64,000 nt of DNA from Planctopirus ephydatiae. GTDB taxonomy: Bacteria > Planctomycetota > Planctomycetia > Planctomycetales > Planctomycetaceae. Where the stretch lies: contig NZ_CP036299.1 in NCBI RefSeq assembly GCF_007752345.1, forward strand, positions 2,805,001-2,869,000. The letters run 5' to 3'. Made by a program: the position numbers and the translations under genes. Of the stretch, positions 27,695-48,219 are shown piece after piece. Positions within the stretch are counted from its first letter, which is position 1. The number at the start of each line of letters is the position of its first letter. Under the pieces are notes generated by a model, which saw only the letters and a list, made by a program, of their open reading frames with translations, had not been told where the DNA came from and did no database searches.

Positions 27695-27991
27695 ACAACC
27701 CCAATGATGACGACTGAGAAAAGAACTCGTTTGTCAAATGAGTGGATTCTGAAGAATCAAGTAGCCAGGAACATTTTAATATGTGGCTGATTTTTGGTTG
27801 ACCGTGGCTTCGGCAAATTATCGTAACAATACCCCAAATGTTTTTTGCGTAAGAATAGCCGAAGGATTCGTGCAGTCACTCGCTGGAAGTGGGTTAAAGT
27901 GTTTATTCATAAGAACTTCATCAACTGCCATCGCGATTTATCAGTGACCAGAGGTTTTTCAGTGATCTGAGGTTTTGTCGATGGCCATGCC

Positions 27992-28666
27992 TTATGAAGA
28001 GCCTGTCTCTAAGCGGTTGCGATGCCGGATGATCTCACCCTCGACAAGATAAACCACATCTTCGGCGATATTTGTCGCGTGATCCGCGACACGCTCAATC
28101 TGTCGACACACACTGAAAAGATGCATGTGCAATTCAATGAGTTGTGGCTGTCGCTGCATACGTAGAATGAGATCGTGGATAATCTCTCGATTGAGGTTGT
28201 CAACGCGATCATCTGTCTGGCAGACATCTCGTGCCAGCTTGACATCCATTTCCACGTACGAATCGATACTGCGATGCAACATGCTCAGTGCCAGATGTGA
28301 CATCTCGCGGAAATCGTCGGGAACGTGGACTTCACCACAACGGATAATCGAGAGCGCACGCTCAGAAATATTCACACCCAGATCGGCGACCCGCTCCAAC
28401 TCACCGGAGATCTTCATGACTGTGGTGATTCGTCGCAGGTCCACGGCTACAGGCTGATGAAGTGCCAGGAGTTTGAGACACTCCTCTTCGATCTGCACGT
28501 CCATGCGATCGATTTCGTCATCCTGAGCCGGAATCTGCTCTGCTTTCTCATAATCCCGGCGGTGCAGGGCATCAACTGCTGAATCAATCAGTTCCTCAAC
28601 GCGAGCGCACATCGTGAGCACGTTGCGATGAAGTGCATCGAGATCGCGAATAAGGTGAATCGCCAT
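27992..28666 (-). CDS. phoU: phosphate signalling protein PhoU
   Basis: A 224-residue all-helical protein with two PhoU repeats, each a three-helix bundle with acidic metal-binding positions (EQIPAQDDEIDRMDVQIEEECL; DVCQTDDRVDNLNREIIHDLI). PhoU links the Pst transporter to PhoR and keeps the regulon off when phosphate is plentiful. Length and layout are standard. It lies 75 bases downstream of pstB on the same strand, the usual operon position. Confidence 0.95.
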   Translation of the reverse strand: MAIHLIRDLDALHRNVLTMCARVEELIDSAVDALHRRDYEKAEQIPAQDDEIDRMDVQIEEECLKLLALHQPVAVDLRRITTVMKISGELERVADLGVNISERALSIIRCGEVHVPDDFREMSHLALSMLHRSIDSYVEMDVKLARDVCQTDDRVDNLNREIIHDLILRMQRQPQLIELHMHLFSVCRQIERVADHATNIAEDVVYLVEGEIIRHRNRLETGSS

Positions 28667-28741
28667 AGACGATGCCCTTAGGTACCGACTGAAAAAATGG
28701 ACTGATGCCTAATGTTTTAGATTCCGTTGCATCAAAAATGA

Positions 28742-29623
28742 TTAACCAAATCGACCGGTAATGTAATCCTCTGTTTCCTTTTCCCGAGGCTTGAAGAAGA
28801 GTTGCTTCGTCAAACCAACTTCCACCAGTCGACCTTGGCAGAAAAAAGCAGTCCATTCACTGATACGGGCGGCCTGCTGCATGTTATGAGTCACGATAAC
28901 GATCGTATAATTCTGCTTCAGCTCGATGATGAGATCTTCAATGCGGGCTGTTGAAGCAGGATCCAGTGCCGAGGCCGGCTCATCCATCAGCAGGACTTCT
29001 GGATTCGTGGCCAATGCCCGGGCAATGCACAATCGCTGCTGCTGCCCGCCAGAAAGAGCCATCGCTGAATCTTTGAGCCGGTCTTTGACTTCGTTCCACA
29101 ATGCGGCCTGTTGCAGGCAGCGCTCGACGGTCTCCTGCACAAATGAGCGATTTCGGATGCCGGCTATCCGCATTCCGTAGGCTACGTTCTCAAAGATCGA
29201 CTTGGGAAACGGAGTTGACTTCTGGAAGACCATGCCTACGCGTTTGCGCAAGGCTACGACATCGATGCGAGGTGCATAGATATCCTGTGAATCCAGCAAC
29301 ACATCCCCGGTATGTCGGGTGCCTTCGATGATATCGTTCATGCGGTTAAGTGCCCGCAGATAGGTGCTTTTGCCACATCCCGAAGGGCCAATCAGAGCCG
29401 TGACTGCCCGTTCGGGAACTTTGAGATTGATGTCGAACAGAGCCTGGTGGCTGCCGTAAAAGAAGTTCATGTGTCGGGTTTCGATCTTCAACTTCTGTTG
29501 ATTGTGATCAGAAACCGCAGCAGTGGACGTCGACGAATGAGCTTGACCGGCAACTGGCGGTTGAGTTGCCTGAGGCATTGCGGTGGCCTGTGCGAAGCCC
29601 GCTTGTGGTGGTATCAGATTCAT
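28742..29623 (-). CDS. pstB: phosphate ABC transporter ATP-binding protein PstB
   Basis: A 293-residue ABC ATPase that powers high-affinity phosphate import. Walker A is GPSGCGKST, the Q-loop is [18 protein letters not shown], the signature is LSGGQQQR, Walker B is [13 protein letters not shown], and the switch His is [12 protein letters not shown]. The PstB-specific N-terminal [11 protein letters not shown] is present. It has an extra N-terminal stretch of about 45 residues rich in Ala/Gln/Ser/Thr that most PstB proteins lack; an internal start such as the Met of RHMNFFYG would give a short form. Eight bases separate it from pstA. Confidence 0.96.
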
Positions 29624-29631
29624 AAGAGGCC

Positions 29632-30696
29632 CTACCAGCGAACTTTTTTCTGGAAGTGCTGGCGAATAAAGATTGCCAGACCATTAGAGATCAGCAGGAT
29701 AACAAGCAGCACAAGAATGGCTGCCGCCGCAACGTGCTGGAATTCAGGTTTTGCTTCGTTGATCCAACCGTAGATCTGCATCGGAATGGTGGTAAACGAA
29801 TCAAAGGGAACTTGTGCCAGTTTGTCTGGCCTGGTGAAAGCTTCGGAGACGGAATTGAGACGCCCTGGAGTGAAGGTGATGTAAGTTGCCGCACCGATAG
29901 CCACAAGCGGTGCTGTTTCACCAATCGCCCGCGACATGGCGAGAATGACTCCGGTCATCATTCCCGGCAGAGCTGAGGGCAAAACCTGATGCCAGATGGT
30001 CTGCCACTTTGTGGCTCCCAGAGCTAACGAAGCATGACGCAGGCTCGGAGGAACGGATCGCAGTGCTTCTTGGCTGGCAATGATCACGACTGGAAGGCTC
30101 AAGAGAGCCAGTGTCAATGCACCCGAGATCACTGTGCGACCGAAAGGAAGCGTTAATTGCAGGCTACCTATCCCTAGATTAATCAGGTACTCACTTTTCG
30201 CGAGGCCGAACATGCGCACGAATGCGGTGAATCCGAGAATGCCATAAACAATCGAAGGAACACCTGCCAGATTCGCGATGTTCAACTGAATGAATTTTGT
30301 CAGCAGAGTTGGCTTGGAGTACTCTTCGAGGTAGATAGCGGCACCAACCCCCAATGGTACTGACAAGAGTGCCGTCAGGAGGATCAGCCAGAACGTCCCG
30401 ACAATCCCCGGTAGAATCCCTGCATCAGCCGGATTTCTGCGGGGCATCGATACCAGAAACTTAGGTGTCAGCCATCCCATCGCCTGCCAGGCCATGGTCG
30501 CAATCAGCACGCCAAGGATGAAGACTGATCCCCAGGTGGCCAACCAGCAAACCCATTCGAAGATCATGCCATACCGGTGACGGCGAGCCAGTTCCGAGTC
30601 AAAACTTTCTTCGAGAAGTTTTGCGCCGGCAGCCGTGGTCTCAACAGGCATTTGAGGTGGTTCTGAGGATGTTGGTGCTGAGATCTTTGGGTTCAC
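29632..30696 (-). CDS. pstA: phosphate ABC transporter permease PstA
   Basis: A 354-residue inner-membrane permease, one half of the phosphate channel. After an N-terminal cytoplasmic stretch of about 45 residues come six helices. The transporter coupling loop ([31 protein letters not shown]) contains the EAA-type motif that docks to PstB. It starts at a GTG that overlaps the pstC stop by four bases (GTGA), so the two are translationally coupled. The long N terminus is the only unusual point. Confidence 0.95.
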
Positions 30697-31739
30697 TGGT
30701 ACACCTCACGGTAGCGCGCCAGCACCAGTTGGGAGATCAGATTCATTGTCAGCGTGGTCAAAAAGAGCACCAGAGCGACGGCATACAGACTTTTATATTC
30801 AATCGTGCCGACCGGCGTATCGCCCGACATCACATTCACCACGTAGGCTGTCATGGTTTCAATCTGGCTGAGGGGGTTGAGCGTTAACGTCGGTTTTTGA
30901 CCGGCAGCTATCGTCACGGCCATGGTCTCCCCAACGGCACGAGAGATGGCCAGCAGAAATGCCGCAATGATCCCCGAAAGTGCTGATGGAATCACCACAC
31001 GCACACAAACATCATATTTTGTGGAACCCAGTGCATAACCAGCTTCTCGTAAAGTTCGTGGTACTGCACGAAGGACATCTTCGCTCAGCGAGCAAACCGT
31101 AGGAATGATCATCAATCCCACGACGATCCCGCCACTCAAGGCATTGAAGCCATCGACTGGAATACTCCACAGCCAGTCGACACCAAAAAATTCAGCAGGT
31201 TTGAGAATAGGCCGAATGACATAAGGCGTTACGATCCTCAGGCCAAAATAGCCATAAACGACGGTGGGAACACCAGCCAGAAGTTCAAGAATCGGCTTCG
31301 CGATCGAACGAACGCGTGGTGATGCGTATTCCGCCAGATAGACAGCAGCCAGCAATCCAGTCGGCAATCCGATGATCGCGGCAATGATCGTAATGAGGAA
31401 TGTTCCACAGATCAGTGGCCAGATGCCGAAGAATGGTGGGCTGTATTGGGGTGCCCACCGGGTTTCGAGGAAAAACTGAGAGAGGCTGATCTCTTGAAAG
31501 AAAGCTCTTTCCGGGGGAATGCCAAAGATCGCCTCACTGACCAGTACAAAAATAATGGCCAATGTTGTTAACACTGAAAGGAGAGCACAAAGAAACAGCA
31601 GCATCTGAATGATGCTTTCACGCAGCCTGTGCCACGTGAAGCGATAAGCCAGCCCGGAAGCTTCCAGATTCGTACGGTCGATGACCGAGTCGGTACTCGC
31701 AGGCTTTTGTTCGACCACAGACATGTGCCGTATACTCAA
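30693..31739 (-). CDS. pstC: phosphate ABC transporter permease PstC
   Basis: A 348-residue membrane permease that pairs with PstA. Six helices are visible, and the coupling loop is DVLRAVPRTLREAGYALGSTKYDVCVRVVIPSALSG. A large periplasmic loop follows the first helix (residues about 70-105). It lies after the strong hairpin in the pstS-pstC gap, which fits the usual excess of PstS over the channel. A second in-frame ATG at codon 6 is an equally good start. Confidence 0.95.
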   Translation of the reverse strand: MSIRHMSVVEQKPASTDSVIDRTNLEASGLAYRFTWHRLRESIIQMLLFLCALLSVLTTLAIIFVLVSEAIFGIPPERAFFQEISLSQFFLETRWAPQYSPPFFGIWPLICGTFLITIIAAIIGLPTGLLAAVYLAEYASPRVRSIAKPILELLAGVPTVVYGYFGLRIVTPYVIRPILKPAEFFGVDWLWSIPVDGFNALSGGIVVGLMIIPTVCSLSEDVLRAVPRTLREAGYALGSTKYDVCVRVVIPSALSGIIAAFLLAISRAVGETMAVTIAAGQKPTLTLNPLSQIETMTAYVVNVMSGDTPVGTIEYKSLYAVALVLFLTTLTMNLISQLVLARYREVYQ

Positions 31740-31857
31740 TTAATCGGTCAGTAGTGTAATCGGTCAATAGTGCCTTGAACTCTGATCGAAACCATTAGCA
31801 GACAAGACGCCTAGCGCATGAAAGCTCGACGATATACTTCAGAGGCACTGAGGATTG

Positions 31858-31900
31858 GATCTTCCGACTCGACTGCCAATGGGAATCGAGCCGGAAGATC
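31858..31900 (-). promoter_or_regulatory. intercistronic hairpin between pstS and pstC
   Basis: Positions 31858-31866 pair with 31892-31900 (9 bp), and after a one-base mismatch 31868-31872 pair with 31886-31890 (5 bp), with a 13-base loop. There is no T-run on either strand, so it is more likely an mRNA-stabilising or attenuating structure than a full terminator. In other bacteria structures at this place keep pstS mRNA abundant relative to pstCAB. Confidence 0.6.
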
Positions 31901-31959
31901 GTGGGTTTCAATCCGCTATCTAATTTGACTGACAAAAATTCCAGAGTGCCCCGACGGCC

Positions 31960-32976
31960 CTACTTGAGGGCGTCAGCCAATCGCTGCTGCATGGTTTCTT
32001 TGACAGACTTGGGAACCTTGATGTACTTCACTTCTTCAACCAGCTTGTCACCCTCTTCAGAAAGCAGGAATCGAATGAACTCGGCCACCTCAGGACGTTT
32101 CAGTTTGGCTTTTGTGGTGTAGATAAACAATGGTCGAGAGAGTGGTGTATATTCACCCGATTCAATTGTTGCCGGCGTAGGCTCAACACAAACAGCGTTT
32201 TTACCATCAGAGATCTTGACGGCCTTCAGTTTGGAGGCGTTTTCGGCGTAGTAGGCATACCCAAAATAACCCAGAGCACCTTTCGAATCGACAACACCTT
32301 GCACGAGAATGTTATCATTCGAATTGGCTGTGTAGTCTGAGCGGCTGGATTTCGATTTCCCGTTGATCACTTCAGTGAAGTAATCAAAAGTTCCTGAAGC
32401 TGTGTCAGCTCCAAAAAGTTGGATCGGTTCGTCGGGCCAGCCTTCGCGAACTTCACTCCACTTGGAAATTTTGCTGTCAGCAGCCCAGATTTTGTTCAGC
32501 TCTGCCACTGTCATACATTCAGCCCAAGTGTTGGCAGGATTGATGACCACTGTCAGACCATCAATCGCCACCTGAAATTCAACATAATCGATCCCCTTGG
32601 CCTTGCACTCAGCGGCTTCCTTCTCTGTGATCGGTCGGCTGGCACCCGTCACGTCGATTTCTTCCGCAATAAACTTCTTGAAGCCGCCACCTGTTCCAGA
32701 CATGGCGACCGTAAGTTTCACCTCTGGAAATTTACCTTCAAATTCTTCAGCCACTGCCTGAGAAATTGGGAAGACAGTGCTGGATCCATCGACGGCAATC
32801 GTGCCTGTAATCGCTGGAGTTGCCGCATTCATCCCCTCATTTGACGAATCAGTATTTTTGCTGGTGGTGGCGGTTTGATCGGCTGGCTTCTCCTGGACAC
32901 AGCCAGACATCGAGCCACACACTGTCCCAAGCAACGCGATCAGTACCAAGGCATAACGGGGACGAATAAATGGCAT
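31960..32976 (-). CDS. pstS: phosphate-binding lipoprotein PstS
   Basis: About 338 residues from the ATG at 32976, chosen because GGAG lies eight bases upstream and because it puts the lipoprotein signal at the N terminus. In the longer frame (from 33081) the signal would be buried 36 residues in. The lipobox is SMSGC, with Cys26 as the lipidated residue. The mature protein has the periplasmic binding-protein folds with TIAVDGSSTVFPIS, the phosphate-binding AMSGTGGGFKKF, TGASRPIT and FGADTASGTFDYF. It captures phosphate outside the inner membrane and hands it to PstCA. Confidence 0.95.
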   Translation of the reverse strand: MPFIRPRYALVLIALLGTVCGSMSGCVQEKPADQTATTSKNTDSSNEGMNAATPAITGTIAVDGSSTVFPISQAVAEEFEGKFPEVKLTVAMSGTGGGFKKFIAEEIDVTGASRPITEKEAAECKAKGIDYVEFQVAIDGLTVVINPANTWAECMTVAELNKIWAADSKISKWSEVREGWPDEPIQLFGADTASGTFDYFTEVINGKSKSSRSDYTANSNDNILVQGVVDSKGALGYFGYAYYAENASKLKAVKISDGKNAVCVEPTPATIESGEYTPLSRPLFIYTTKAKLKRPEVAEFIRFLLSEEGDKLVEEVKYIKVPKSVKETMQQRLADALK

Positions 32977-33265
32977 TCCAGCGGCTCCAAAGTCTTCTGT
33001 GTTCATTGTTATCAAGAATAGATGCCGAATATGTTCTTCCGACACCTGTTCGAGACTAAGGACTCTCTGTGAAAATTCCAACCAGCCTATTGTGAAGATT
33101 GTCTTAATTTAAGTGCGGCAATGGGTTGCGTTCAAGTGAGGCCACACGGGTGTCGCGAGAGAAGGGCCTTTTGCAGAGGAAAAACTTCACAAATTCGGGT
33201 TTTCCTGAAGCAGGATTATTGGGCTTGTATTCCATCTGATGGGCATTGCACGGCAAATTCTCAGT
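32977..33265 (-). promoter_or_regulatory. pstS leader and probable Pho-controlled promoter region
   Basis: The 289 bases between phoR and the chosen pstS start should hold the pstS promoter. On the minus strand, near 33091-33112, TTAAGACA and TTCACA lie about eleven bases apart. This loosely resembles the direct-repeat layout of Pho boxes, and a third TTTCACA lies near 33069-33075. The match to any published Pho box is weak, so the operator itself is only suggested. Confidence 0.25.
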
Positions 33266-35020
33266 TCACATCCATGTCTGGCCATTCGAGTTTTGACCGT
33301 TCTTCAGCAGGACCGTGAATTGACTGCCGGAGCCGACCTGACTGGTGACGCGGATACTTCCCCCAAAAACCTGGCAAAGGTGTTTCACAATCGAAAGGCC
33401 CAATCCGGTACCGCCGACCTCGCGGGAGCGAGCTTTATCGACCCGGTAGAATCGCTCAAAAATTCTCGCCTGATGCTCGCGGGGAATCCCGACACCGGTA
33501 TCTTCAACATCGATTCTTGACCACTCACCTTCCCGTCTCCAGCGGACCGTGACCCGGCCACCCGAAGGAGTGTAGTTCAATGCATTGTCGAGCAGGTTGT
33601 CGATAATTGTCTGGAAACCATCACTGTCGGCAATGACTTCCATCTCTTCGTTCGGAGCGACCGAGATCAGTTCAATCTGCTTGCTTTTGGCCACACCCTG
33701 ATGTTCGTCAATGCTTTTTTGCAGGATGTACGTTGCGTTGACTGGTTCAAGCTCAAATGCCTGTTCAATCGAATCCAGCCGCGCGAGGGCAATCAGATCG
33801 GCAATCAGCTTGTTTAACCGTTCGGCCTGTTCCTCAATTCTTTGCAGGAATGTCCGGCAAGTTTCTTCATCTTCCATCGCGCCATTCAGCAAGGTCTCTG
33901 CATAGGCACTGATGGAAGTGAGCGGGGTCTTCAGTTCATGAGAAACATTGGAGACAAACTCTCGTCGCAGATTTTCAAGTCGCCTGAGATCTGTGACATC
34001 ATGCAGCACCAATACCGCGCCAGTTGCCGGTTCACCGGGCAAGGGGGAGGCCACCATGGCCAACGTTCGCTGTGTGCGGGCAACGTCGAACTCGACCTTT
34101 TCCGAGGGTTGGCCACTGAGCGCCGCTTGAACAATTTTTTGAACCTGCGGATGTCTGACTGCTTCCCAGATCGGCCGGCGCATAAAACTCTGTGGCTGCA
34201 CGTCCAGAAGCTGGAACACCGTATCGTTGGCAAAAAGAATCTGCTCTGAGCGGTCAACAGCAATGACTCCTTCAATCATGGAGCGAAGGACCGTTGCCAG
34301 TTGTTCATGTTTTTCTTCGAGTTCCTGGCTCTGTTTTTCGAGTTCACTGAATCGCTGGGCCAGCTGGCGATCCATGTTTCTCAACGTGCGGGCTAAAGTA
34401 CCGATTTCGTTCCGGCTATCGAAATTCAATCCCTTGGGAGATTCTCCCAAGGCCATCTGTTCGGCAGCGTGGGTCAGTCGATCCAGCGGCTGAATGATTC
34501 GGGCGACCATGACGTATGTCACAATCAATCCGATCAGCACCAGTGTAAACGCGGTGACCCACAATCGAGCCGAGATCCAGGAAAGGTTTTCTGTCACGCT
34601 GTCGAGCGGCGTCGTCATGCGGAGAATAAGTGTCTCACCATGGGCCTCGAATTCGATCGTATACAACTGAAACAGGGCGTTCGCGTTGGGCCGCCGAGAA
34701 GTTCCAATACGATGAGCAAGTGCATCCGCCAGATCCGGCTCGGAATTCGCCTTCTGTCGAGCTTGATCCAACGTCAAGACTTCGAATCTTGTTTCAGAAG
34801 TTGCGTTGATCGTTCGCAGAAAATCCCATCGATCACCGGCAGGAATTTTTCGAAGTTGTGGTAACAGGATTTGCGCATTGTCGATCTGCCGGGCTTCCAC
34901 TTGCGGATACGCCAGATCGCGGTATCCCGCAGTGAGTGTCAAGGCAAATGCGAATGCCGTGCAGAGCGTCAAACCCGCATAGATCGCGAAAATTCTCCAG
35001 AAGAGTTGCGATGTCAGCAT
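33266..35020 (-). CDS. phoR: PhoR-type membrane sensor histidine kinase
   Basis: A 584-residue sensor kinase. It has a membrane helix at 8-30, a periplasmic segment of about 115 residues, a second helix at about 152-173 and a HAMP segment to about 225. A PAS domain follows around 240-345 (MIEGVIAVDRSEQILFANDTVFQLLD). The HisKA domain has phosphoacceptor His361 in FVSNVSHELKTPLTS, and the ATPase domain has DNLLDNALNYTPSGG (N box), DTGVGIP (G1) and GGTGLGLSIVKHL (G2). Its place directly upstream of pstS identifies it as the PhoB partner. The large periplasmic segment is unlike the very short one of enterobacterial PhoR but common in other phyla. Confidence 0.93.
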   Translation of the reverse strand: MLTSQLFWRIFAIYAGLTLCTAFAFALTLTAGYRDLAYPQVEARQIDNAQILLPQLRKIPAGDRWDFLRTINATSETRFEVLTLDQARQKANSEPDLADALAHRIGTSRRPNANALFQLYTIEFEAHGETLILRMTTPLDSVTENLSWISARLWVTAFTLVLIGLIVTYVMVARIIQPLDRLTHAAEQMALGESPKGLNFDSRNEIGTLARTLRNMDRQLAQRFSELEKQSQELEEKHEQLATVLRSMIEGVIAVDRSEQILFANDTVFQLLDVQPQSFMRRPIWEAVRHPQVQKIVQAALSGQPSEKVEFDVARTQRTLAMVASPLPGEPATGAVLVLHDVTDLRRLENLRREFVSNVSHELKTPLTSISAYAETLLNGAMEDEETCRTFLQRIEEQAERLNKLIADLIALARLDSIEQAFELEPVNATYILQKSIDEHQGVAKSKQIELISVAPNEEMEVIADSDGFQTIIDNLLDNALNYTPSGGRVTVRWRREGEWSRIDVEDTGVGIPREHQARIFERFYRVDKARSREVGGTGLGLSIVKHLCQVFGGSIRVTSQVGSGSQFTVLLKNGQNSNGQTWM

Positions 35021-35966: not shown

Positions 35967-36974
35967 TTAGCGAACGAAAATGGACTGTCGCTGGTAACCA
36001 TTTTCCTGAGACTGTACCGATGTGTCCACGGGTTTCACGGCAATAAATGTTTCATGAACTGCGGAACCAATTTTATTAAGTTTCGTCTGCAGTAGATCAA
36101 GAAATTCATGCAGGCCTTGCTGAATCACATCATCCACCGTGGTATACGCCAGTTCGGATCGCAGTTGCCCGACGCGCTGTTCGGCTGAGTTGCGAAAAGT
36201 ATCCATGGGCGTGCCCGAAATTGCATGTAAGGCATGTTCCACGCCGGTGACCGAATAATTGATCGCCCGAGGGAAATGGCGATCCAGAATCAGGAATTGA
36301 GCGACTTTCGATGGAGTGATCGCATGGAATTGTTTCGAGTACATTTCCATCGCACTGACAGATCTCAAGACCGCTTGCCACTGCAGGTCATCCGTGGGCG
36401 AGCCCACATCATGGACTGTCGGCAACAGGAGGTAATATTTCACGTCCAGAATTCGAGAGGTTTTATCGGCGCGCTCAAGCAAACGCCCCAACCGGCTGAA
36501 ATTCCATCCTTCCCCTCGGGACATCGTGGCATCGGTGATCCCTTTGAACAGATGCGAAGCCTGCTTGATCTCCTGGAAAAAATCGAGAGGAGACGCCTTG
36601 ATGCGATCATTAGCCGAAGCTTCCCGCACCATGTAGTAGAACAGATTCAATTGCTCCCACATCTCGCTGGAGATCGTCTCACGAACAGAGCGGGCATTTT
36701 CTCGGGCAAATTTGACGCACGAACGGATCGACCCAGGATAGTCCTGATCGAAGGCGAGAAACTCAATCACGCTGCTCTGATTTGCATCGCCATATTTCTC
36801 ACGAAAGTACTCATGGTCACCTGTCGTATAGACCAGTGGCGCCCACGCATTCTGATGAGACTGCGGCAAGTCGAGCATTAGGTTAAATGTCACGTCCATG
36901 AATCGTGCCAGATTCTCAGCACGTTCAATGTATCGACTCATCCAATAGATCGCGTCGGCAACACGGCTGAGCAT
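35967..36974 (-). CDS. alpha-E domain protein (stand-alone)
   Basis: A 335-residue all-helical protein of the alpha-E family (COG2307). The start LSRVADAIYWMSRYIERAENLARFMDV is the family hallmark, and helices with conserved Glu/Arg pairs follow (GRLLERADKTSRILDVKYY; SVTGVEHALHAISG). The biochemical role is unknown. Genes of this family almost always sit beside circularly permuted ATP-grasp and transglutaminase-like genes, as here, and are proposed to take part in making or processing a peptide-like product. It is the last gene of the five-gene run, 104 bases after the stand-alone ATP-grasp gene. A fused copy of the same domain is in the gene at 39634-42327. Confidence 0.92.
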   Translation of the reverse strand: MLSRVADAIYWMSRYIERAENLARFMDVTFNLMLDLPQSHQNAWAPLVYTTGDHEYFREKYGDANQSSVIEFLAFDQDYPGSIRSCVKFARENARSVRETISSEMWEQLNLFYYMVREASANDRIKASPLDFFQEIKQASHLFKGITDATMSRGEGWNFSRLGRLLERADKTSRILDVKYYLLLPTVHDVGSPTDDLQWQAVLRSVSAMEMYSKQFHAITPSKVAQFLILDRHFPRAINYSVTGVEHALHAISGTPMDTFRNSAEQRVGQLRSELAYTTVDDVIQQGLHEFLDLLQTKLNKIGSAVHETFIAVKPVDTSVQSQENGYQRQSIFVR

Positions 36975-37078
36975 TCCAGTTCTTCCGGCAAGCGTTCAAG
37001 TTGTAAAACAGGATCTGAGAATTCTAAAGGTGAGTCTGAGCGTTTTTTGAGTGGGTCATGGATACCCTGGATCTGCCG

Positions 37079-38584
37079 TTAAGGGGTCGCTGATTGAGGT
37101 GTCAACTGTTCCTGATTGGTGGCAATGACCCACGTGTCTTTACTTCCACCCCCTTGAGAAGAATTCACAACCAGCGAGCCTTTTCTTAAGGCCACTCGGG
37201 TCAGTCCGCCGGGAAGCACGAAAATCTCTTTACCATAGAGGATGTAAGGCCTGAGATCGACATGCCGACCCTCAAAATGATCTCCACAGATCGTCGGTAC
37301 TCTCGAAAGCGAGAGTGTCGGCTGCGCAATATAGTTCCGCGGATTGGCTTTGATCAGTTCAGCAAACTGGGCCTGTTGTTCTCTGGTTGAATGGGGCCCC
37401 ACCAGCATGCCATATCCTCCCGATTCATTGGCCGCCTTGACGACCAGCTCGTCCAGATGATCGAGAACATAGGCTCTCTCATCTTCGTTTTCACAGATAT
37501 AAGTGGGGACGTTCGGAATAATGGCCTCTTCATTGAGGTAGTACTTGATGATCTTGGGGACATACGCATAGATCACTTTGTCATCGGCCACACCGGTGCC
37601 TGGTGCATTCGCCAGCGCAACCCGCCCTGCACGGTAGACATTCATCAGCCCTTCCACTCCAAGCATGGAATCGGCCCGGAAGGCTTTAGGGTCAAGAAAA
37701 TCGTCATCGATCCGACGGTAGATAACGTCAACCTGCTCCAGGCCGGAGGTCGTCCGCATGTAAAGCTTTTCGCCGGCAACAACCAGATCCCGTCCTTCGA
37801 CGAGTTCGACACCCATCTGTTGTGCCAGGAATGAGTGCTCGTAGTAGGCTGAATTAAAGACGCCTGGTGTGAGCACCACCACGCGCGGATTGGCGACATC
37901 CCGGGGCGAAAGATGCTCTAAAGTTCTCAGTAATCGAAGCGGATAATCACCTACCGGACGCACCCGGCTGAGATCGAACACCTGTGGGAATGTCCGCTTC
38001 ATGATCGAGCGGTTTTGCAGCACATAAGAGACACCCGACGGGCAGCGCAGGTTGTCCTCCAGCACATAGACCTGCCCATCGCCGCCGCGCACCAGGTCTG
38101 TCCCGGTGACATGGCACCAGATCCCGTGAGGCGGATTGATCCCGTGGCATTGCTCGCGGTAACTCTTCGCATCCAGCAGAATTTCGGCCGGTATAACGCC
38201 ATCCTTAATGATGTGCTGATCGTGATAAATATCGTTAATAAATAAGTTGAGAGCTTGAATTCGTTGTTTCAAGCCCCGTTCGAGCCATTCCCACTCATGG
38301 GCCGGTACAATTCGGGGGATGATGTCGAACGGAAAGATACGTTCAGCGCCTTGATTGTCTCCATAGACATTAAATGTAATGCCCAACTGGAGCAGGAGAC
38401 GTTCGGCGGCCGCCTGCCGGCGCATTAACTCGCCAGGCGGTAGCGAATTGATTCTTTGGATGATCGGGCCGGCTTCAGGTCTCGGGGTCTGATCTGCGAG
38501 AAACAGTTCGTCGTGAAACCCCTCGGTCTGGTACTCGGCAAAGCTGAGGGCTACGTCAGGAACGGACGCCAGCACTGGATTCAT
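37079..38584 (-). CDS. circularly permuted type 2 ATP-grasp protein (stand-alone)
   Basis: A 501-residue protein of COG2308, predicted to form amide bonds by activating a carboxylate with ATP. The circularly permuted order places the former C-terminal part first ([22 protein letters not shown]). The metal-binding [13 protein letters not shown] lies around residues 175-187. The nucleotide-binding part has [17 protein letters not shown], with lysine K383 and the glycine-rich loop at 389-392. [25 protein letters not shown] follows and GGGSKDTWV closes the domain. All expected ATP-site elements look intact, so this is the likely active ligase of the cluster. It lies between the short transglutaminase and the alpha-E gene. 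Confidence 0.93.
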
Positions 38585-38668
38585 GAATTCGATCCTGCGA
38601 AGTTAGCCAAAGATTAAAGATGACAATTGTGAGCAATGAGCAAGTCGAAATCACAGGCAGAAAAATCT

Positions 38669-39583
38669 TTACCCGGCGGTAGCGGCATAACCGCCCGTCG
38701 TATCGAATTCTTCTTCGGGCATAACATCCACAGAAATTGCCATCGTATGCTGACCCCCACCGATAAACACCCCTTTAATCGGGCAAACATCGGTGTAGTC
38801 TCTGCCCCATGCCGTGGTGATATGTTGGTCGGAAGCCATCGTGTTATTTGTCGGGTCAAAATCAATCCATCCCATCTCACCGCAAAAGACCGATAACCAG
38901 GCATGGGAAGCATCCGCGCCAATTAGCCTGGGTTTACCCGGAGGTGGTAACGTCCGGATGTATCCACTGACATAACGGGCTGCCAAGCCTAACGAGCGCA
39001 GGCAACCAATCTGCAAATGTGCAAAATCCTGACAGACGCCGCGTCGGCTCTCCAGAACTTCTTCCAGAGGGCTGTTCACCGTTGTGGCTGTTGGATCATA
39101 TTTAAAATCATGAAAAATTCGTGCCGTGAGATCAAGAACTGCTGAAACAATGGGCTTTCCCGGGCTGAAAGACAGAGCAGCGTACTCTCGAAGGGCTGGA
39201 AATGAGTGGATCGATGGCGAGTCGATGTAAAACTGCATGGCATCAAGGCAGTCGTGCCCGTCGGCGCGGCACAATCGCTGCACCATTTGTTCCCACGAGG
39301 GGGACAGACTTGGGATCACGGGCGGCTTAACGATCACTTCAATATGGCTGATCGACTTCACCATCAAACGCCGATGAGGCCGCTGTATGGCAAAGTAATG
39401 CTCGACGTTCCCAAAAAAATCGGTCCTTCGAACAATCGCAGCGGGCTTCGGCCTGACGATGACCCGATGATCGAAACACCGTTGAGTCAGCATGTTTCGT
39501 GGTGCCAGATGCACCACATTATGGCAGACAGCCACCGGGTCGGTATAGCGGTAGTCGGTCGTGTGAGTAATGCGGTATTCCAT
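38669..39583 (-). CDS. transglutaminase-like cysteine protease (short form)
   Basis: A 304-residue protein of COG1305 with a beta-sandwich N-terminal domain (about 1-100: YRITHTTDYRYTDPV, NVVHLAPR) and a papain-like core. The catalytic triad is visible as Cys184 in SRRGVCQDFAH, His228 in DASHAWLSV and Asp243 in WIDFDPTNN. No signal peptide is present, so it acts in the cytoplasm. In this gene context it is predicted to cut or re-form amide bonds in a product made by the ATP-grasp partners. The stop is 84 bases from the next gene. Confidence 0.92.
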   Translation of the reverse strand: MEYRITHTTDYRYTDPVAVCHNVVHLAPRNMLTQRCFDHRVIVRPKPAAIVRRTDFFGNVEHYFAIQRPHRRLMVKSISHIEVIVKPPVIPSLSPSWEQMVQRLCRADGHDCLDAMQFYIDSPSIHSFPALREYAALSFSPGKPIVSAVLDLTARIFHDFKYDPTATTVNSPLEEVLESRRGVCQDFAHLQIGCLRSLGLAARYVSGYIRTLPPPGKPRLIGADASHAWLSVFCGEMGWIDFDPTNNTMASDQHITTAWGRDYTDVCPIKGVFIGGGQHTMAISVDVMPEEEFDTTGGYAATAG

Positions 39584-39633
39584 ACGCTTGGCTGATTTTC
39601 AGAAGGAAATTGTTTCCTGCAAAGCCTCCGATT

Positions 39634-42327
39634 TCAGAGGCTTTCGTTATCCAGCATAAAATCGTTGTCTTCCAGAGATCTCCGTTCCCGCTCAATCATT
39701 TTCTCCCGCTCGTTGGTTTTCTCACGGGAGGTGGTGTTCATGTTCCATTCGGCGGGCTTGAGTTTTCGCGGCCGGACATCTGTCAGTTGTTGTGCAGAAA
39801 CCGCGTGCAACAAATAACGATGAGTAATGGCATTGGAAAGCTGCGGGAGAATACGGGCAAGTTTTGCCAGGCGGCGGTCAATTCGATCTCGCACATCGGG
39901 CTGGTTGGCACTGGAGAGTTCTTCGGCAGAGATCAATTGCAGCAGGCTGTTGGCGTTGAGAATCAAACGCTGTTCTGTCGTTCTCAGTGGTGTCGTCTTG
40001 TCTCTGGGGAGCTGATCAATGTGCTGGGATAACGTCTGCATCTGGAAAATGACCGAACGTGGGTTGCTTTCGTCAGTCAGAATCAGATCCAGCACAGGTG
40101 GCAATTGAATGCGGGTCAGATAGCGTGTGCGATAGGTGATCAGGCTATCTGCCACTTCGACGATCGATTCCAGAACAGCCGAAGAATTCATGTATTCAGG
40201 GATTAACAGGCTTCGCCCGAGAACCAGAGTCTGCATACTCCGTTCGATGCGCCGCCCGATATCCAGAAATCGCCAACCCAGGGTTCTTGTCGTACTTTCC
40301 ATCGATAATCCACTCAGGGCCGACAGATCTCCAATCAAGCGGTTGAGCTGTTGAAGCACGTCTGCAAAATCGGTAGCGGCATTGGTGCGTCGGCGATGAA
40401 ACTCCCGGTACAGACGGTTGATCGTTCGCCAGCTATCGAGAGAAAGTCTTTCCCGAACCAGCGATGCGACATGATTGAGCTGGCTGAGTGTCGATTTCAG
40501 GCTGAATGGTTCACGTTCATCAAAAATCGCTGGTGGCAATAAACTTTCAATGGCAGGCATGTGCTGACGGAAATCCTGCAGGGCGAAGCTGGGTTCAATC
40601 TGACCCCCTTCCGCCAGGCATCGCATCAGTACAGCAACATCCGGGACATTGCTGCCACCGGATTCTCCAGTCAGTCGGCTGACCATAGTTCGCAATAAGC
40701 GAGCGGTGCTTTCCGCCCTTTCAGCAAATCGACCGACCCAGAACATGTTATCTGCCACACGGCTGGGAAGTTCCGAGCCACTTCGCCTGAGTGTAATGGC
40801 CGCCCCGGGTGGCGAAAGCAACGTGATCTGCGGTACCGGGCCATCACTTTGAACCCAGCAGTCTTTGGCACCCTCTCCCAATGAAACCGACTGATCAAGG
40901 GTGTGAGACAATGGAGAACATCGCACTAAACCACCGGGCATAGCCACGTACCCGGAATTCGATGCCACAAGATAAGTTCTCAGCCCCACATGCCATGATT
41001 GCCAGGAATCATTGAGCAGGACGGGAGCTTTCGAGCGACGCACAATCTCCTGACCGACATACAAATGCGGCCTGTGGTTCATGGCTGCCAGCAGCGTGTC
41101 TCTTTGGGATTGAGAAATTTCAGCCGGGCGTCCCGAAGGGAGGTTCGAATGCGAAAACGCAGGACGAATCCACAACGAATTCGCATGCTGCCTGACATAC
41201 TCCAATGATTTGGGGTCTCCGCACCACCAGGTTTGAGTCGATGGCAGATCCAGCTCGGTTCCCAGCCAGTTCCTCGCAATTTGCGGCAAATAAGCCATGA
41301 TGGCGGGTGTTTCGAGCAAACTGCATCCGAGTGCATTGGCCACTGCACATTGCCGGGCTCGCAAGGCCTGAACCAGTCCCGTCACACCGCGAAATGAATC
41401 CGCTTTCAGTTCCAGTGGATCGCAATCGAGGTCATCCAGCCTGCGAAACAGGACATCGACAGGAAGTAATCCGCCGAGTGTTTTCAGCATCACCTGCTGA
41501 TCGCGAACAGCGAGATCTTCTCCTTCGACAAGAGAATATCCCAGGTATCGAGCGAGGTAGGCATCTTCAAAAAAATTCGGGTTGGATGGCCCCTGGCTCA
41601 GGAGCACAATCCGCGGATTGTCCCGATGATCATAAGCCATCTTTTGCAGGAGTTCACGCAGAGCAATAAAGAAAGGCGCAAGACGCTGCACCCGCTGGTC
41701 TCGAAAAACTTTGGGGAAAATACTCGAACCCACAATGCGGTTTTCGAGTGCGTAAGCCACACCAGAGGGTGCTTCCGTTCGATCACTGACAATCACCCAT
41801 TCTCCACCGGGATTCCTGGCCAGTTCTCCCGCATAAAGCTGTAACCACTGATGCTGTACGGGTGCGGGCAGATCGTGTAGAGCCCGCGAATAATGCGGGT
41901 TCGAGTAGACCAGTTGTGGTGGTAACAATCGTTCGCTGAGCAGACGCTGTTCGCCATACAGGTCGCGAATAATCATGTTTAACAGGTATGCCCGCTGCGA
42001 CAGTCCTCGAGCAAGCTTCTGCCATTGACCGGGCGGGATGATCAATGGGATGACATCAAACTCCCAGGGCCGATTGCGCCGTTCGGTATCGCCCTGAGCA
42101 GTGTAAGTCACACTGTTTTCATGAATCGTTCGCTGGGCCTGCTGTCGAGATCGCAGCAATTCCAGCGGCCCCATCTCCTGGATGGCATCAACCAGCGAAG
42201 TTGTGTGGGCACGAAGAACCCCACGACTCATGAAATATTCGTCGTGAGTTCCTTCGGCAACCGGATAGCTTTCAACAAGACCTTCTGCGAGTCCGGTTCG
42301 CAGAACTGTTCCAGGGGCTTGAGTCAT
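39634..42327 (-). CDS. ATP-grasp / alpha-E fusion protein
   Basis: An 897-residue protein joining a circularly permuted ATP-grasp domain (about 1-515) to an alpha-E domain (about 520-870, beginning LPSRVADNMFWVGRFAERAESTARLL). The ATP-grasp half keeps EFDVIPLIIPPGQW, SDRTEAPSGVAYALENR and GLRTYLVASNSGYVAMPGGL. Where the stand-alone paralogue has the ATP lysine and a GGYG loop, however, this one reads SLWIRPAFSHSNLPSGRP (about 384-401). The lysine is replaced by Arg and the loop is missing, so ATP binding is doubtful. It may be a scaffold or regulatory partner of the active ligase. The last 45 residues are Arg/Glu/Lys rich and charged. It lies 50 bases upstream of the short transglutaminase gene. 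Confidence 0.92.
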   Translation of the reverse strand: MTQAPGTVLRTGLAEGLVESYPVAEGTHDEYFMSRGVLRAHTTSLVDAIQEMGPLELLRSRQQAQRTIHENSVTYTAQGDTERRNRPWEFDVIPLIIPPGQWQKLARGLSQRAYLLNMIIRDLYGEQRLLSERLLPPQLVYSNPHYSRALHDLPAPVQHQWLQLYAGELARNPGGEWVIVSDRTEAPSGVAYALENRIVGSSIFPKVFRDQRVQRLAPFFIALRELLQKMAYDHRDNPRIVLLSQGPSNPNFFEDAYLARYLGYSLVEGEDLAVRDQQVMLKTLGGLLPVDVLFRRLDDLDCDPLELKADSFRGVTGLVQALRARQCAVANALGCSLLETPAIMAYLPQIARNWLGTELDLPSTQTWWCGDPKSLEYVRQHANSLWIRPAFSHSNLPSGRPAEISQSQRDTLLAAMNHRPHLYVGQEIVRRSKAPVLLNDSWQSWHVGLRTYLVASNSGYVAMPGGLVRCSPLSHTLDQSVSLGEGAKDCWVQSDGPVPQITLLSPPGAAITLRRSGSELPSRVADNMFWVGRFAERAESTARLLRTMVSRLTGESGGSNVPDVAVLMRCLAEGGQIEPSFALQDFRQHMPAIESLLPPAIFDEREPFSLKSTLSQLNHVASLVRERLSLDSWRTINRLYREFHRRRTNAATDFADVLQQLNRLIGDLSALSGLSMESTTRTLGWRFLDIGRRIERSMQTLVLGRSLLIPEYMNSSAVLESIVEVADSLITYRTRYLTRIQLPPVLDLILTDESNPRSVIFQMQTLSQHIDQLPRDKTTPLRTTEQRLILNANSLLQLISAEELSSANQPDVRDRIDRRLAKLARILPQLSNAITHRYLLHAVSAQQLTDVRPRKLKPAEWNMNTTSREKTNEREKMIERERRSLEDNDFMLDNESL

Positions 42328-42446
42328 CTCGCGATGTCAATCTTTTACACGAGTTCGTACCAATGGAAGCCGCATTGTTCCGGCAGCCACGAGATGTCAT
42401 GCACACCGTGACAACCAATTCATAAATGCGTGGATACATGAGCGGT

Positions 42447-42495
42447 GCCTGCGTGTCAATATGCCAAATGGTGCAATATCAACCAACACGCAGGC
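42447..42495 (-). promoter_or_regulatory. hairpin between transglutaminase-DUF2126 gene and ATP-grasp fusion gene
   Basis: Positions 42447-42456 pair perfectly with 42486-42495 (10 bp, GCCTGCGTGT/ACACGCAGGC), and the 29-base loop itself contains short ATAT and GCCA/TGGT pairings. It begins 12 bases beyond the DUF2126 gene stop. No T-run follows on the minus strand, so it may stabilise the upstream mRNA or partly terminate, lowering expression of the four genes behind it. Confidence 0.5.
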
Positions 42496-42506
42496 TCCTG
42501 CAGGAA

Positions 42507-45500
42507 TCACATGAACATGGGTGCTGTGGGACGCCTCAGATCTAACGTAAATGGGAAGTGTCTGTTGGTGTGTTCCGGAGGAAGCTTCATAGCTCCGCCC
42601 GTGTGATTCATCTTGTAGAAGCGCGTCATGCGACGACTTTCAGCCTCGTAGGAGTTCACCGGGAAAACGTCATATCCTCGACCACCCGGATGCACCACAT
42701 GATATTGCGCACCGCCGACTGAGCGATTCAGCCAGGTATCGACGACGTCAAAGGTCAAGGGGGAATGAATTCCAATCGTCGGATGCAGGCAGGATGGCGG
42801 TTGCCACGCTCTGTACCTGATGCCAGCCACATATTCGGATTCTGTACCCGTCGGATGGAGTGGAATGCGTCGTCCGTTCACGGTGAGTACTTGACGCCCT
42901 GGAGTGAGGCCTTTCACCTTCACCTGCAGTCGTTCGACCGAAGAATCGACATACCGGGCCGTTCCGCCAGGTGCACCTTCTTCGCCCAGCACATACCACG
43001 GTTCCAGTGCTGTGCGGAACTCGATATGCACTGATCCCAGTGAGATCTCGCCGATCTTCTGGCAACGGAATTCGAGATGCGGATTGAACCAGTCGTTCTC
43101 AAATGCAAAACCAGCATTCTGCAGTTCACCAATCACACACTGGAAATCTTCTTCCAGAAAATGTGGCAGCATGAATCGATCATGCAGCGACGTTCCCCAG
43201 TGAACTGGCGGGTGACGATAGGGTTCCTCCCAGAACCATGCCACAATGGCCCGAATCAACAGTTGTTGCGTCAGGCTCATGCGGGCATGTGGGGGCATCT
43301 CAAACCCACGGAACTCCACCAGTCCCAATCGTCCGGTGGAACTGTCTGGTGAATACAATTTATCGATACAGAACTCTGCACGATGCGTGTTCCCCGTCAG
43401 GTCCACCAGCAGGTTTCTAAAGATACGATCCACCAGCCAGGGTGGGACGGATGTGTGATCGGGAATCTGCTCGAAGGCCAGTTCCAGTTCGTAAAGCGTA
43501 TCTTTTCGCCCTTCATCCACGCGGGGTGCCTGGCTGGTCGGCCCAATAAACAGCCCCGAGAATAGATATGACAGCGAAGGATGATTATTCCAATAGGTAA
43601 TCAGGCTGCGCAACAGATCGGGACGTCTGAGGAAGGGACTATCAGCCGGTGTCTTGCCGCCCAATACCACATGATTCCCACCACCAGTTCCCGAGTGTCG
43701 TCCATCGAGCATGAACTTTTCAGTCCCCAGTCGAGACAGCCGGGCTTCGTCGTACAGGCCGGTGGTTAATTCAGCCAGATCATTCCAGGTTTCCGTGGGT
43801 GGAGTATTGACTTCAATCACCCCGGGATCCGGTGTGATCTTCCAGACGAGAAGCCGAGGATCATAAGGGGAGAGGTACCCTTCCACCGCGACCGGCATCG
43901 AAAGTTCGGCCGCTGTTTCCTCGATCGCAGCGATGAGCTCCAAAAAGCATTCGGCTGTTTCAACGGGTGGAAGAAACACAAATATGCGCCCATCGCGTGG
44001 CTCAACCACGAGAGCCGTGCGGACATGGCTGTCATTCATCTGGAATGGTTCAGGCTGCTTCCAGTGTGAGTCTTGATGGCTGTCAGAATTTCCATTTGAA
44101 CCATTGTGGCCATCATGCCCGTTCGAAGGTGGCCCCGAGTATACGCCAGATCGATCAGCCGGCAGACTGCTGGCGCCGTCACTGCCAGGAGCCAGAGTTT
44201 TGCGAGCGACCGAAGAGACTGTCGCACCTTCACCAAACCCCCAGTGTTCTGTCGAAGGCCGATCCTGAGCCGCTTCACCCAGGTTTTGAGCCGACCACAA
44301 GTTCGCTCCACTGGTCGAGGCGACTCCAATAGGAGTTGCAGGAAACATCGCCTGAGCTGCCCGCCGGAGTGATTTAGGGACGGGAAGTGGCGGCAATGGT
44401 TCTAGAGGATCTCGATCGACAAGTCGTCCAAGACGTTCATCTGAAATGTAGGGCAGCGAATCCAGCGGCAGGCGGAAGCCCATCGCGGAATCACCCGGGA
44501 GCAGATAAAACTGATCTCGCCTGACAGGCCATTCGGCTGTGACCCAATGCGGTGTCGAGTTAAAGCGGTTACGGCGCAGTGGCAGAACACAACCCGTGGG
44601 TTTGCCCAGACCTCGCTCAAACAGTCGCACGATTCTCTCGCGCTCCTGCTTGTCTTTAAGTTTGTTATCGAACACATCAACGTTAATGGGCAATCGCATT
44701 TCACGCATGGCGTAATAAGCCACGTCTTCATATCCATCCACAATGGTGCTGGTCGTGACTTCGAGGTTTTTGGCCAGTAATTCGATAAACCGTCTTGCAT
44801 CCGCAAAATTGAAGTCGTATTTGGTTGTTTCGTCGGCCATGAGATTCCGATCACGCCAGACGGGTAACCCATCTTTCCGCGAGATCAGCGTAAATGCCCA
44901 GCGGGGTAATGGCTCACCTGGATACCATTTTCCTTGGCCATAATGAATCAGCGCTCCAAGGGCAAAACGCTCGCGAATACGCCGGGAAAGGACATCAGCC
45001 CGCATCCGTTTTGTCGGTCCCACGGCAGCCGTATTCCACTCGTCGCCTTCCATGTCGTCGATGGAAACAAACGTCGGTTCACCACCCATGGTCAGTCGCA
45101 CGTCGGCTGCCTGCAGGTGACGATCCACATCGTTCCCCAGCCGCATGATCCGTTGCCACTGCTCGTCAGTGTAAGGCTTCGTGACACGGGGATCTTCGTG
45201 AACTCGAACGACTTCCATTTCGAAATGGAATTTGGTTTCACAGGGATCAATCGCTCCTGTGATGGGTGCCGCAGAACCTGGCTCTGGCGTACAAGCCAAA
45301 GGAATATGCCCTTCGCCACAAAGCAGACCTGAAGTCGGATCCAGACCCACCCAACCGGCTCCCGGAAGATAGACTTCCGTCCAGGCGTGCAGATCGGTGA
45401 AGTCATACTCTGCACCGGATGGACCATCCAGAGCTTTGACATCGGGAGTCAGTTGTAAGAGATACCCTGAGGCAAAACGTGCGGCGTAACCAAGATGTCT

Positions 45501-46073
45501 CAGTATATGAACCAGTAGCCACGCAGAATCTCGGCAGGAACCAGATCGCTTGGTTAACGTTTCTTCCGGCGACTGAACACCATGTTCGAGACGGATGACG
45601 TAGCAGATATCTCGATGAAGCTGGCGGTTCAGTTCGACCAGAAAATCAATTGTTCTTTGAGGTTTTTGATCGACAGTTTCAATGTAAGCTTTGAGAGCAG
45701 GCGTGGCTGTGGGAACCTCCAGGTAGGCCGCCAGTTCGGATTTGAGCCAGGGTTCGTAGATGAACGGAAACTTCTCGGCGTACTCTTCGAGGAAAAAGTC
45801 AAACGGATTGATGACTGTCATGTCGGCAATCAGGTCGACGCTCACACTGAATTCTGTGGTCTTTTTGGGGAAAACCAGACGTGCCAGAAAGTTACCGTGA
45901 GGATCCTGCTGCCAGTTCAGATAATGGTCTTTGGGCTCAATTTTGAGCGAATACGAAACGATGGGTGTCCGACAATGAGGTGCCGGTCTGAGCCGCACAA
46001 TATGCGCTCCCATCGATACCAATCGATCGTAGGTGTAGACAGTTTTGTGATGAAGAGCGACACGGATCGTCAT
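42507..46073 (-). CDS. transglutaminase-DUF2126 protein
   Basis: An 1188-residue protein with an N-terminal transglutaminase domain and a large DUF2126 region (COG1305 plus COG4196). The beta-sandwich segment (1-110) starts [17 protein letters not shown]. The papain-like triad is Cys180 in [11 protein letters not shown], His229 in TDLHAWTEV and Asp245 in [11 protein letters not shown]2126 begins around residue 310 ([19 protein letters not shown]) and runs to the C terminus, with [15 protein letters not shown] and [12 protein letters not shown] as strong landmarks. DUF2126 has been suggested to be a ligase-like or peptide-processing domain, but this is not proven. A disordered linker of about 100 residues (575-675), rich in Gly, Ser, Asn and His, interrupts it. 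It is the first gene of the operon. Confidence 0.93.
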
Positions 46074-46608: not shown

Positions 46609-48219
46609 ATGTTCATTGTGCCTGAAATTCGTGCAGCTCTGAGTGTGTTGTTGCTGATCCAGTTGGCTGCTGAATCTCTCTTGGCCAATGAACTTACTTT
46701 GATGTCACATCAATCTCCCCGGCCGAATGTGGTGTTCATTCTTGCAGATGACCTGGGGTGGGGAGAAGTTGGTTGCTTTGGACAATCCAAAATTCCCACG
46801 CCCAACATTGACCTCCTCGCGAGTCGGGGTGTCAAACTGACTCGCCACTACAGTGGTGCACCAACATGTGCCCCTTCACGTTGCGTCCTGATGACGGGAA
46901 AACATCTGGGACACTCAGAAATTCGCGGCAATCAGCAAGCTAAAGTGAAGCTCCCTCAGTTCACAGAAGGGCAACATCCATTAAGTGACAAAGCGCTAAC
47001 CATTGCCAGACTATTTCAAAAGGCAGGTTACGCGACGGGAGCCTTTGGAAAATGGGGTCTGGGGCCAGTCGGCAGTACAGGTGAGCCCAATCGTCAGGGA
47101 TTTGATGAGTTTTTTGGTTACAACTGCCAGGCCTTGGCCCACAGTTACTTTCCCAAAGCCTTATGGAAGAATGGTGAGAGTATTGTCATCAATGAAAAGC
47201 CGGTTCCCGGCCATAAAAAGCAACCTGAAGGCGAAGTGACGATGGAGGCTTACCAGGGTGAAAAATACGCTCCCCGGTTAATTATGGCGGAGGCCCTCTC
47301 GTTTATTGATCGTCATCATCAGCAGCCGTTTTTCCTTTATCTCCCTTTGACTGAGCCGCATGTCGCGATGCAGCCACCGCCGAAAATTGTGGAAGAATTT
47401 CCGGCAGAGTGGGATGAGCGTGTCTATCGAGGCGATGGCGGTTATTTGCCACATCCCAGGCCCCGTGCAGCCTACGCCGCGATGATTCGAGATCTCGACA
47501 ACCATGTCGGAGACGTTATCGCCTCTCTCGAAAAACATGGTCAAGTGGATAACACCCTTATTGTCTTTACCAGTGACAACGGGGCGACTCATGCCAGTGC
47601 CAATCCCGATTTTCATGTCGGGGGAGCTGATCCCCTCTTCTTTAATAGCACCCGTGAACTCAAAGGATTCAAGGGAAGTATCTATGAAGGAGGCTTGCGT
47701 GTCCCAGCCATTGTTTCCTGGCCCGGGCAAATCCCTCCTGCGACAACCATCGATACCCCCAGCTATTTTCCCGATTGGTTTCCCACTCTTTGTAGCGCGA
47801 CAAATCTCCCTCTTCCTGAGGGTTTAGATGGCGTTAACCTGCTGCCATTGCTGACTGGCAAAACCTCTCCAGGTCAGTTCGTCCGTCCCGAACCCATGGT
47901 GTGGGTCTACGCCGAATATACCGGTCAGGTTTGTGTACATCTGGGAGACTTCAAGGTTCTCAGGCGCGGCCTTCGCACCAACCGGCCCGGGCCCTGGGAA
48001 GTCTATCATCTTGTTTCTGATCCCGGTGAAAGCACAAATCTGGCAGACAGCCGGCCTGATCTTATTGCCAAGGCGATCGAAGTCTTAAAGTCCCAAACCT
48101 TGCCGAACGAAGTCTTTCCTATGCCGGAGTGTGACCTGCCTGTCGTCGAAAAGGGTGCTCCCAAGGCCAAAACGCAGGGTAAGAATCGCTCCAGGCAAGA
48201 ATCTGGGGCTACAGAATAG
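46609..48219 (+). CDS. formylglycine-dependent sulfatase
   Basis: A 536-residue exported sulfatase of the arylsulfatase A family, cleaving sulfate esters, most likely of polysaccharides. The N terminus is a signal peptide (LSVLLLIQLAAESLLA). The mature part opens with PNVVFILADDLGWGEVGCFG (metal Asp pair). The activation motif CAPSR starts at Cys87, which a formylglycine-generating enzyme would convert; MTGKHLGHSEIRGN follows. Further metal and substrate residues are in FGKWGLGP, PFFLYLPLTEPHVA and TSDNGATH. The C-terminal 20 residues are Lys/Arg/Gln rich. Planctomycete genomes hold many sulfatases; no maturase or carbohydrate enzyme is adjacent, so the substrate is unknown. Confidence 0.95.
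   Translation: MFIVPEIRAALSVLLLIQLAAESLLANELTLMSHQSPRPNVVFILADDLGWGEVGCFGQSKIPTPNIDLLASRGVKLTRHYSGAPTCAPSRCVLMTGKHLGHSEIRGNQQAKVKLPQFTEGQHPLSDKALTIARLFQKAGYATGAFGKWGLGPVGSTGEPNRQGFDEFFGYNCQALAHSYFPKALWKNGESIVINEKPVPGHKKQPEGEVTMEAYQGEKYAPRLIMAEALSFIDRHHQQPFFLYLPLTEPHVAMQPPPKIVEEFPAEWDERVYRGDGGYLPHPRPRAAYAAMIRDLDNHVGDVIASLEKHGQVDNTLIVFTSDNGATHASANPDFHVGGADPLFFNSTRELKGFKGSIYEGGLRVPAIVSWPGQIPPATTIDTPSYFPDWFPTLCSATNLPLPEGLDGVNLLPLLTGKTSPGQFVRPEPMVWVYAEYTGQVCVHLGDFKVLRRGLRTNRPGPWEVYHLVSDPGESTNLADSRPDLIAKAIEVLKSQTLPNEVFPMPECDLPVVEKGAPKAKTQGKNRSRQESGATE

Follow-up and report, generated by a model that had tools for sequence, protein, structure and literature searches.

A probable pseudo-ATP-grasp domain fused to Alpha-E in a transglutaminase gene cluster of Planctopirus ephydatiae

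The window, a stretch of 64,000 nucleotides of Planctopirus ephydatiae DNA, encodes a protein in which an ATP-grasp domain is fused to an Alpha-E domain. The fusion is probably a member of an ancient pseudo-ATP-grasp subfamily; it would serve as a scaffold or regulator of a DUF2126/transglutaminase module, the ATP chemistry being carried out elsewhere. Both the Mg-binding and the phosphate-binding residues are gone from its ATP-grasp half, so the protein most likely cannot form an acyl-phosphate and, judged from its sequence, most likely lacks activity. Since the fusions found across several phyla have all lost the catalytic site, the protein has probably long served as a non-catalytic partner of other enzymes encoded in the same cluster.

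Layout of the gene cluster

According to the open reading frames and Pfam profiles, five minus-strand genes span 35967–46073, with intergenic gaps of 50 to 179 bases. The most upstream gene (42507–46073) encodes a transglutaminase-DUF2126 protein of 1188 residues, which has Cys180, His229 and Asp245, as well as GTGGGNH and ExN in its DUF2126 part. It is followed by the fusion (39634–42327), 897 residues in length, and by a transglutaminase-like protein of 304 residues (38669–39583), in which Cys184 and His227 are conserved. The last two genes encode a stand-alone circularly permuted ATP-grasp protein of 501 residues (37079–38584), whose catalytic signature is complete in the alignment, and a separate Alpha-E protein of 335 residues (35967–36974). 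The Pfam families matched in the cluster are PF14403, PF04174, PF04168, PF08379/PF01841 and PF09899; NCBIfam search gave no match. The whole genome contains two CP_ATPgrasp_2 genes. Scans for promoter-like and terminator-like signals gave nothing useful above chance. Just beyond the upstream end of the five genes, the other strand carries a sulfatase gene (46609–48219). Downstream, on the same strand as the cluster, a phosphate-uptake and -sensing cluster (26987–35020) encodes a response regulator, PhoU, an ABC ATPase, two permeases, a phosphate-binding-like protein and a PAS histidine kinase.

The fusion is composed of a CP_ATPgrasp_2 domain (residues 94–470; 40918–42048, minus strand) and an Alpha-E domain (residues 520–839; 39811–40770, minus strand). 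The first matches the PF14403 profile with 437.6 bits, compared to a curated cut-off of 32, and is thus a homologue of the family; the second matches PF04168 with 230.1 bits. The ER motif of the fused Alpha-E domain is kept (E695 in 150/157 and R696 in 154/157), and the AREN motif of the separate Alpha-E proteins (columns 90–93), which lies outside the Pfam definition of Alpha-E, is lost in the fused form.

The peptide-tagging system of Iyer et al. 2009 is said to have ATP-grasp, a GS-like ligase, an Ntn peptidase and Alpha-E encoded together. Our cluster encodes ATP-grasp, Alpha-E, DUF2126 and transglutaminases, and the genome has no Ntn-hydrolase of PF00227. A whole-genome profile search for a PF00227 proteasome-type protein had no match, indicating that neither Anbu nor HslV is encoded. 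The cluster has the same Pfam families as the circularly permuted ATP-grasp/Alpha-E/transglutaminase peptide-modification system, the Anbu operon included (Iyer et al. 2009); different from that system, it has a second, apparently degenerate ATP-grasp domain, fused to Alpha-E. Besides ATP-grasp, alphaE and transglutaminase, the Anbu operon has a gene for Anbu itself (PMC6376114), whereas the P. ephydatiae genome lacks the Anbu subunit, and Anbu was therefore rejected as the partner of the fusion. Published hypotheses on the role of the Anbu operon have no experimental confirmation (PMC6376114). In Yersinia bercovieri, whose operon resembles by gene set the stand-alone ATP-grasp unit of our cluster, the ATP-grasp protein released phosphate from ATP (PMC6376114); this active ATP-grasp is a protein of its own, unlike the fusion. 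In Pseudomonas putida, PP_2685 (proteasome beta subunit) and PP_2688 (circularly permuted ATP-grasp) are among the genes behind potential nitrogen-sensitive promoters (PMC8050072). In the literature searched, which excludes the original work of Iyer et al. 2009, we found no description of the fused form as inactive.

Catalytic positions and fold of the fusion

E176-D177-N178, D334-D335-K336, K383, G389-G390-Y391-G392, D443 and N474 are invariant or almost so in the stand-alone proteins of the phylum. In the stand-alone gene of the cluster, EDN is encoded at 38051–38059, DDK at 37577–37585 and the K...GGYG loop at 37406–37438. At the positions listed first, in the same order, the fusion reads S-D-R, E-T-P, R, S-N-L-P, G and S. 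The stretch aligned to K383 and GGYG (389–392) is RPAFSHSNLPSG (41131–41166), that is, R388 followed by PAFSHSNLPSG, and the glycine-rich ATP loop is lost. In agreement with the initial annotation, the stand-alone protein keeps the lysine and GGYG, and the fusion has Arg and no GGYG. The same annotation regarded the change as local, with the surrounding landmarks conserved; however, E176/N178, K336 and D443 are lost along with the loop. SDR (residues 181–183; 41779–41787) replaces EDN, ETP (residues 339–341; 41305–41313) replaces DDK, and G448 (40984–40986) replaces D443. Several catalytic motifs are thus lost together, and a change of the loop only was rejected. A W-W-C-G stretch (residues 366–370; 41218–41232) is nearly fixed in fusions; the stand-alone proteins are variable there, except for the Cys.

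The putative roles of these residues come from the glutathione synthetases of eukaryotes, which follow 3N6X as the closest folds in our structure search. In those enzymes a pair of lysines (residues 305 and 364 of the human protein) holds the phosphates together with a glycine-rich loop, and Mg is bound by acids including Glu146 in yeast (PMC2845819). By order and spacing, we infer that E176 and N178 form the Mg-binding E-x-N pair, that K336 and K383 are the two phosphate lysines, K336 being the first, and that D443 is the later Mg-binding acid. Profile alignment onto E. coli GSP synthetase for residue mapping gave nothing significant, so the catalytic assignments rest on motif, spacing and the glutathione synthetase work (PMC2845819). 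Read with these assignments, the fusion lacks the E-x-N of an active ATP-grasp ligase (SDR instead) and has neither phosphate lysine nor the glycine-rich loop (P341, R388 and no GG).

The fusion was predicted with AlphaFold2 at a mean pLDDT of 84 (84.1, model m016d4bddb067) and the stand-alone protein at 85. The best match of both is 3N6X (Mfla_0391 of Methylobacillus flagellatus), with structural-alignment identities of 52% for the stand-alone protein and 27% for the fusion. The TM-score of the fusion model to 3N6X is 0.87 by target length, and glutathione synthetases come next, pointing to an ATP-grasp fold. 3N6X, the nearest solved structure, carries KEVQGSGGYG at the loop position, whereas the fusion does not have this K...GGYG loop; the loop of the stand-alone protein is thus the usual state. 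When the window's genome is compared with that of a close relative, the fusion has a dN/dS of ∼0.02, its ATP-grasp part ∼0.04 and the stand-alone protein ∼0.01; these values (Biopython YN00) come from one close pair and are hence rough. Taken together, the predicted structure and the substitution rates show that the ATP-grasp domain of the fusion, as modelled, is folded and kept by purifying selection.

A decaying gene or a misalignment could also be imagined, and the loop columns do drift. Against this stand the low dN/dS of ∼0.02, the open frame of 897 residues, the same state in 162 homologues and the conserved flanks that anchor the alignment. We rejected this explanation, the chance of which is negligible. 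A precedent for a non-ligating protein of this kind is hTTLL12, which belongs to the TTL family, has an ATP-grasp-like domain and reportedly does not catalyse the ligation known for its family (PMC3520985). Compared to the fusion, hTTLL12 is eukaryotic and of another family and architecture.

Loss of the catalytic signature across phyla

Three sets of genomes were surveyed. Fusions of the window's phylum were gathered by whole-genome family search. Named genomes, assigned by record titles to Planctomycetota, Acidobacteriota, Verrucomicrobiota, Pseudomonadota, Myxococcota, Nitrospirota, Binatota and Fibrobacterota, were retrieved with peptide patterns taken from the fusions of a single phylum, a choice that might bias this set towards sequences of that type. 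The Pseudomonadota sample was an even draw of genomes, picked by family match and frame length instead of sequence pattern; it is free of pattern bias and gave the same result as the named set. Six long-frame Pseudomonadota rows were called fusions from length, domain score and position alone. The stand-alone set contains 85 proteins, 86 initially, after removal of one fusion fragment (SA_L187).

The loss is general to fusions, those of other phyla included: all 162 keep just 0–3 of the 11 signature residues, compared to 10 or 11 in 84/85 stand-alone proteins and 8 in the remaining one. E176 together with N178 is found in none of the fusions and in all 85 stand-alone proteins; the same is true for an acid at 443. 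K336 is present in 2/162 fusions and 85/85 stand-alone proteins. GGxG occurs in 84/85 stand-alone proteins but in 1/162 fusions, so the difference in the loop is not due to chance. A loss confined to this lineage was ruled out by these counts. Lys at 383 behaves differently: it is retained in half of the fusions (81/162; 85/85 stand-alone), and Lys-to-Arg, which we rejected as the key loss, is not diagnostic and is the least informative of the changes. Two very divergent Pseudomonadota fusions (L225 and L226, ∼280 bits) adjoin intact stand-alone genes and are without the catalytic signature. One unfused ATP-grasp of 485 residues (L203), with 8/11 signature residues, has GPRN in place of GGYG, possibly a second, separate loss of the loop.

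In a tree of 164 sequences, built with the catalytic columns excluded, one branch separates fusions from stand-alone proteins (SH-aLRT 100). As the tree is without outgroup, it gives one split and leaves its direction unspecified; the stand-alone state is taken as ancestral because it resembles other ATP-grasp enzymes.

The positions lost in the fusions do not all behave alike. The glycine loop, E176 and D443 drift, and several new residues are fixed: N178 became Arg in 145/162, D334 became Glu in 147/162 and T279 became Leu in 143/162; P422 to Glu is likewise fixed. Together with the strong conservation, the newly fixed residues could fit an enzyme that is still active through a rearranged, non-canonical site. 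We consider this improbable, as Mg ligands and loop are gone in every fusion and no recognisable ATP chemistry is left. The fixation of new residues, in place of drift, is also in line with another use of the old pocket, as a non-catalytic sensor of a nucleotide or phosphate ligand in which Arg183 would replace the metal. Apart from the Arg at 178, most fusions keep a basic residue at 383 (Lys or Arg, 127/162), K482 (141/162) and an acid at 163 (151/162), and all keep R445, so the fusion may still bind a ligand without turnover. Since the glycine-rich loop and K336 are gone, a sensor function is rather doubtful; it is compatible with the scaffold or regulator role that we prefer.

The working partner of the fusion

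The initial annotation proposed an active ligase working with a non-catalytic partner. What holds of this is that the degenerate copy lies beside an intact paralogue and was never found without an intact stand-alone protein; as to the partner, the gene most closely associated with the fusion in genomes is that for transglutaminase-DUF2126 rather than the stand-alone ligase. That the fusion is an inactive subunit paired with the active stand-alone ATP-grasp would fit their constant company: an intact stand-alone gene is present in all 117 fusion-bearing genomes (33/33 in the phylum, 49/49 in Pseudomonadota and 35/35 among the named genomes), and here both genes belong to one five-gene cluster. 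However, the stand-alone protein does not need the fusion, which is missing from 37/86 Pseudomonadota genomes that have it and from ∼13/46 genomes of the phylum with an ATP-grasp match above cut-off. Moreover, most named loci have DUF2126, not the stand-alone gene, near the fusion, and residues common to both proteins might reflect the fold instead of an interface. We therefore regard such a pairing as unlikely.

DUF2126, which we take to be a glutamine-synthetase-like domain, is present in 78/82 fusion genomes (46/49 in Pseudomonadota and 32/33 in the window's phylum). Without the fusion it was found in just 4 genomes of Pseudomonadota and 2 of the window's phylum. Within ATP-grasp-bearing genomes the association gives Fisher p = 6e-16 and 7e-8, values uncorrected for relatedness, and could stem from operon inheritance. 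The order DUF2126, fusion, transglutaminase recurs in the named loci, the stand-alone and Alpha-E pair being nearby in about one third. Co-occurrence and gene order together make DUF2126 a likelier working partner than the stand-alone ligase. GTGGGNH and ExN of DUF2126 and the Cys-His-Asp of the transglutaminase are invariant or nearly so in 54 copies, in keeping with an active enzyme.

We infer that the cluster would work as two units. In the first, a ligase unit, the stand-alone ATP-grasp would work with its own Alpha-E protein. In the second, the fusion and the short transglutaminase would join the DUF2126 protein, with DUF2126 as the ligase. ATP-dependent ligation would thus be left to the stand-alone ATP-grasp and to the DUF2126 domain. 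The fusion, retaining the shape of an ATP-grasp, would be a scaffold or regulator of the transglutaminase-DUF2126 protein encoded upstream and possibly of the downstream transglutaminase as well. A broader formulation is more tentative, and we put it at somewhat below even: the fusions may constitute a cross-phylum ATP-grasp subfamily of obligate pseudoenzymes, with the Mg site rebuilt around a fixed Arg, acting as scaffold or sensor for a peptide-modification module built on DUF2126 and always coexisting with an active paralogue.

The ATP-grasp/Alpha-E/transglutaminase/DUF2126 system is widespread in bacteria. Telling apart the components with and without a usable ATP site, and seeing which genes co-occur, would guide the choice of targets for co-purification and mutation. 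The fusion would also add a bacterial case of an ancient pseudoenzyme kept beside its active paralogue.
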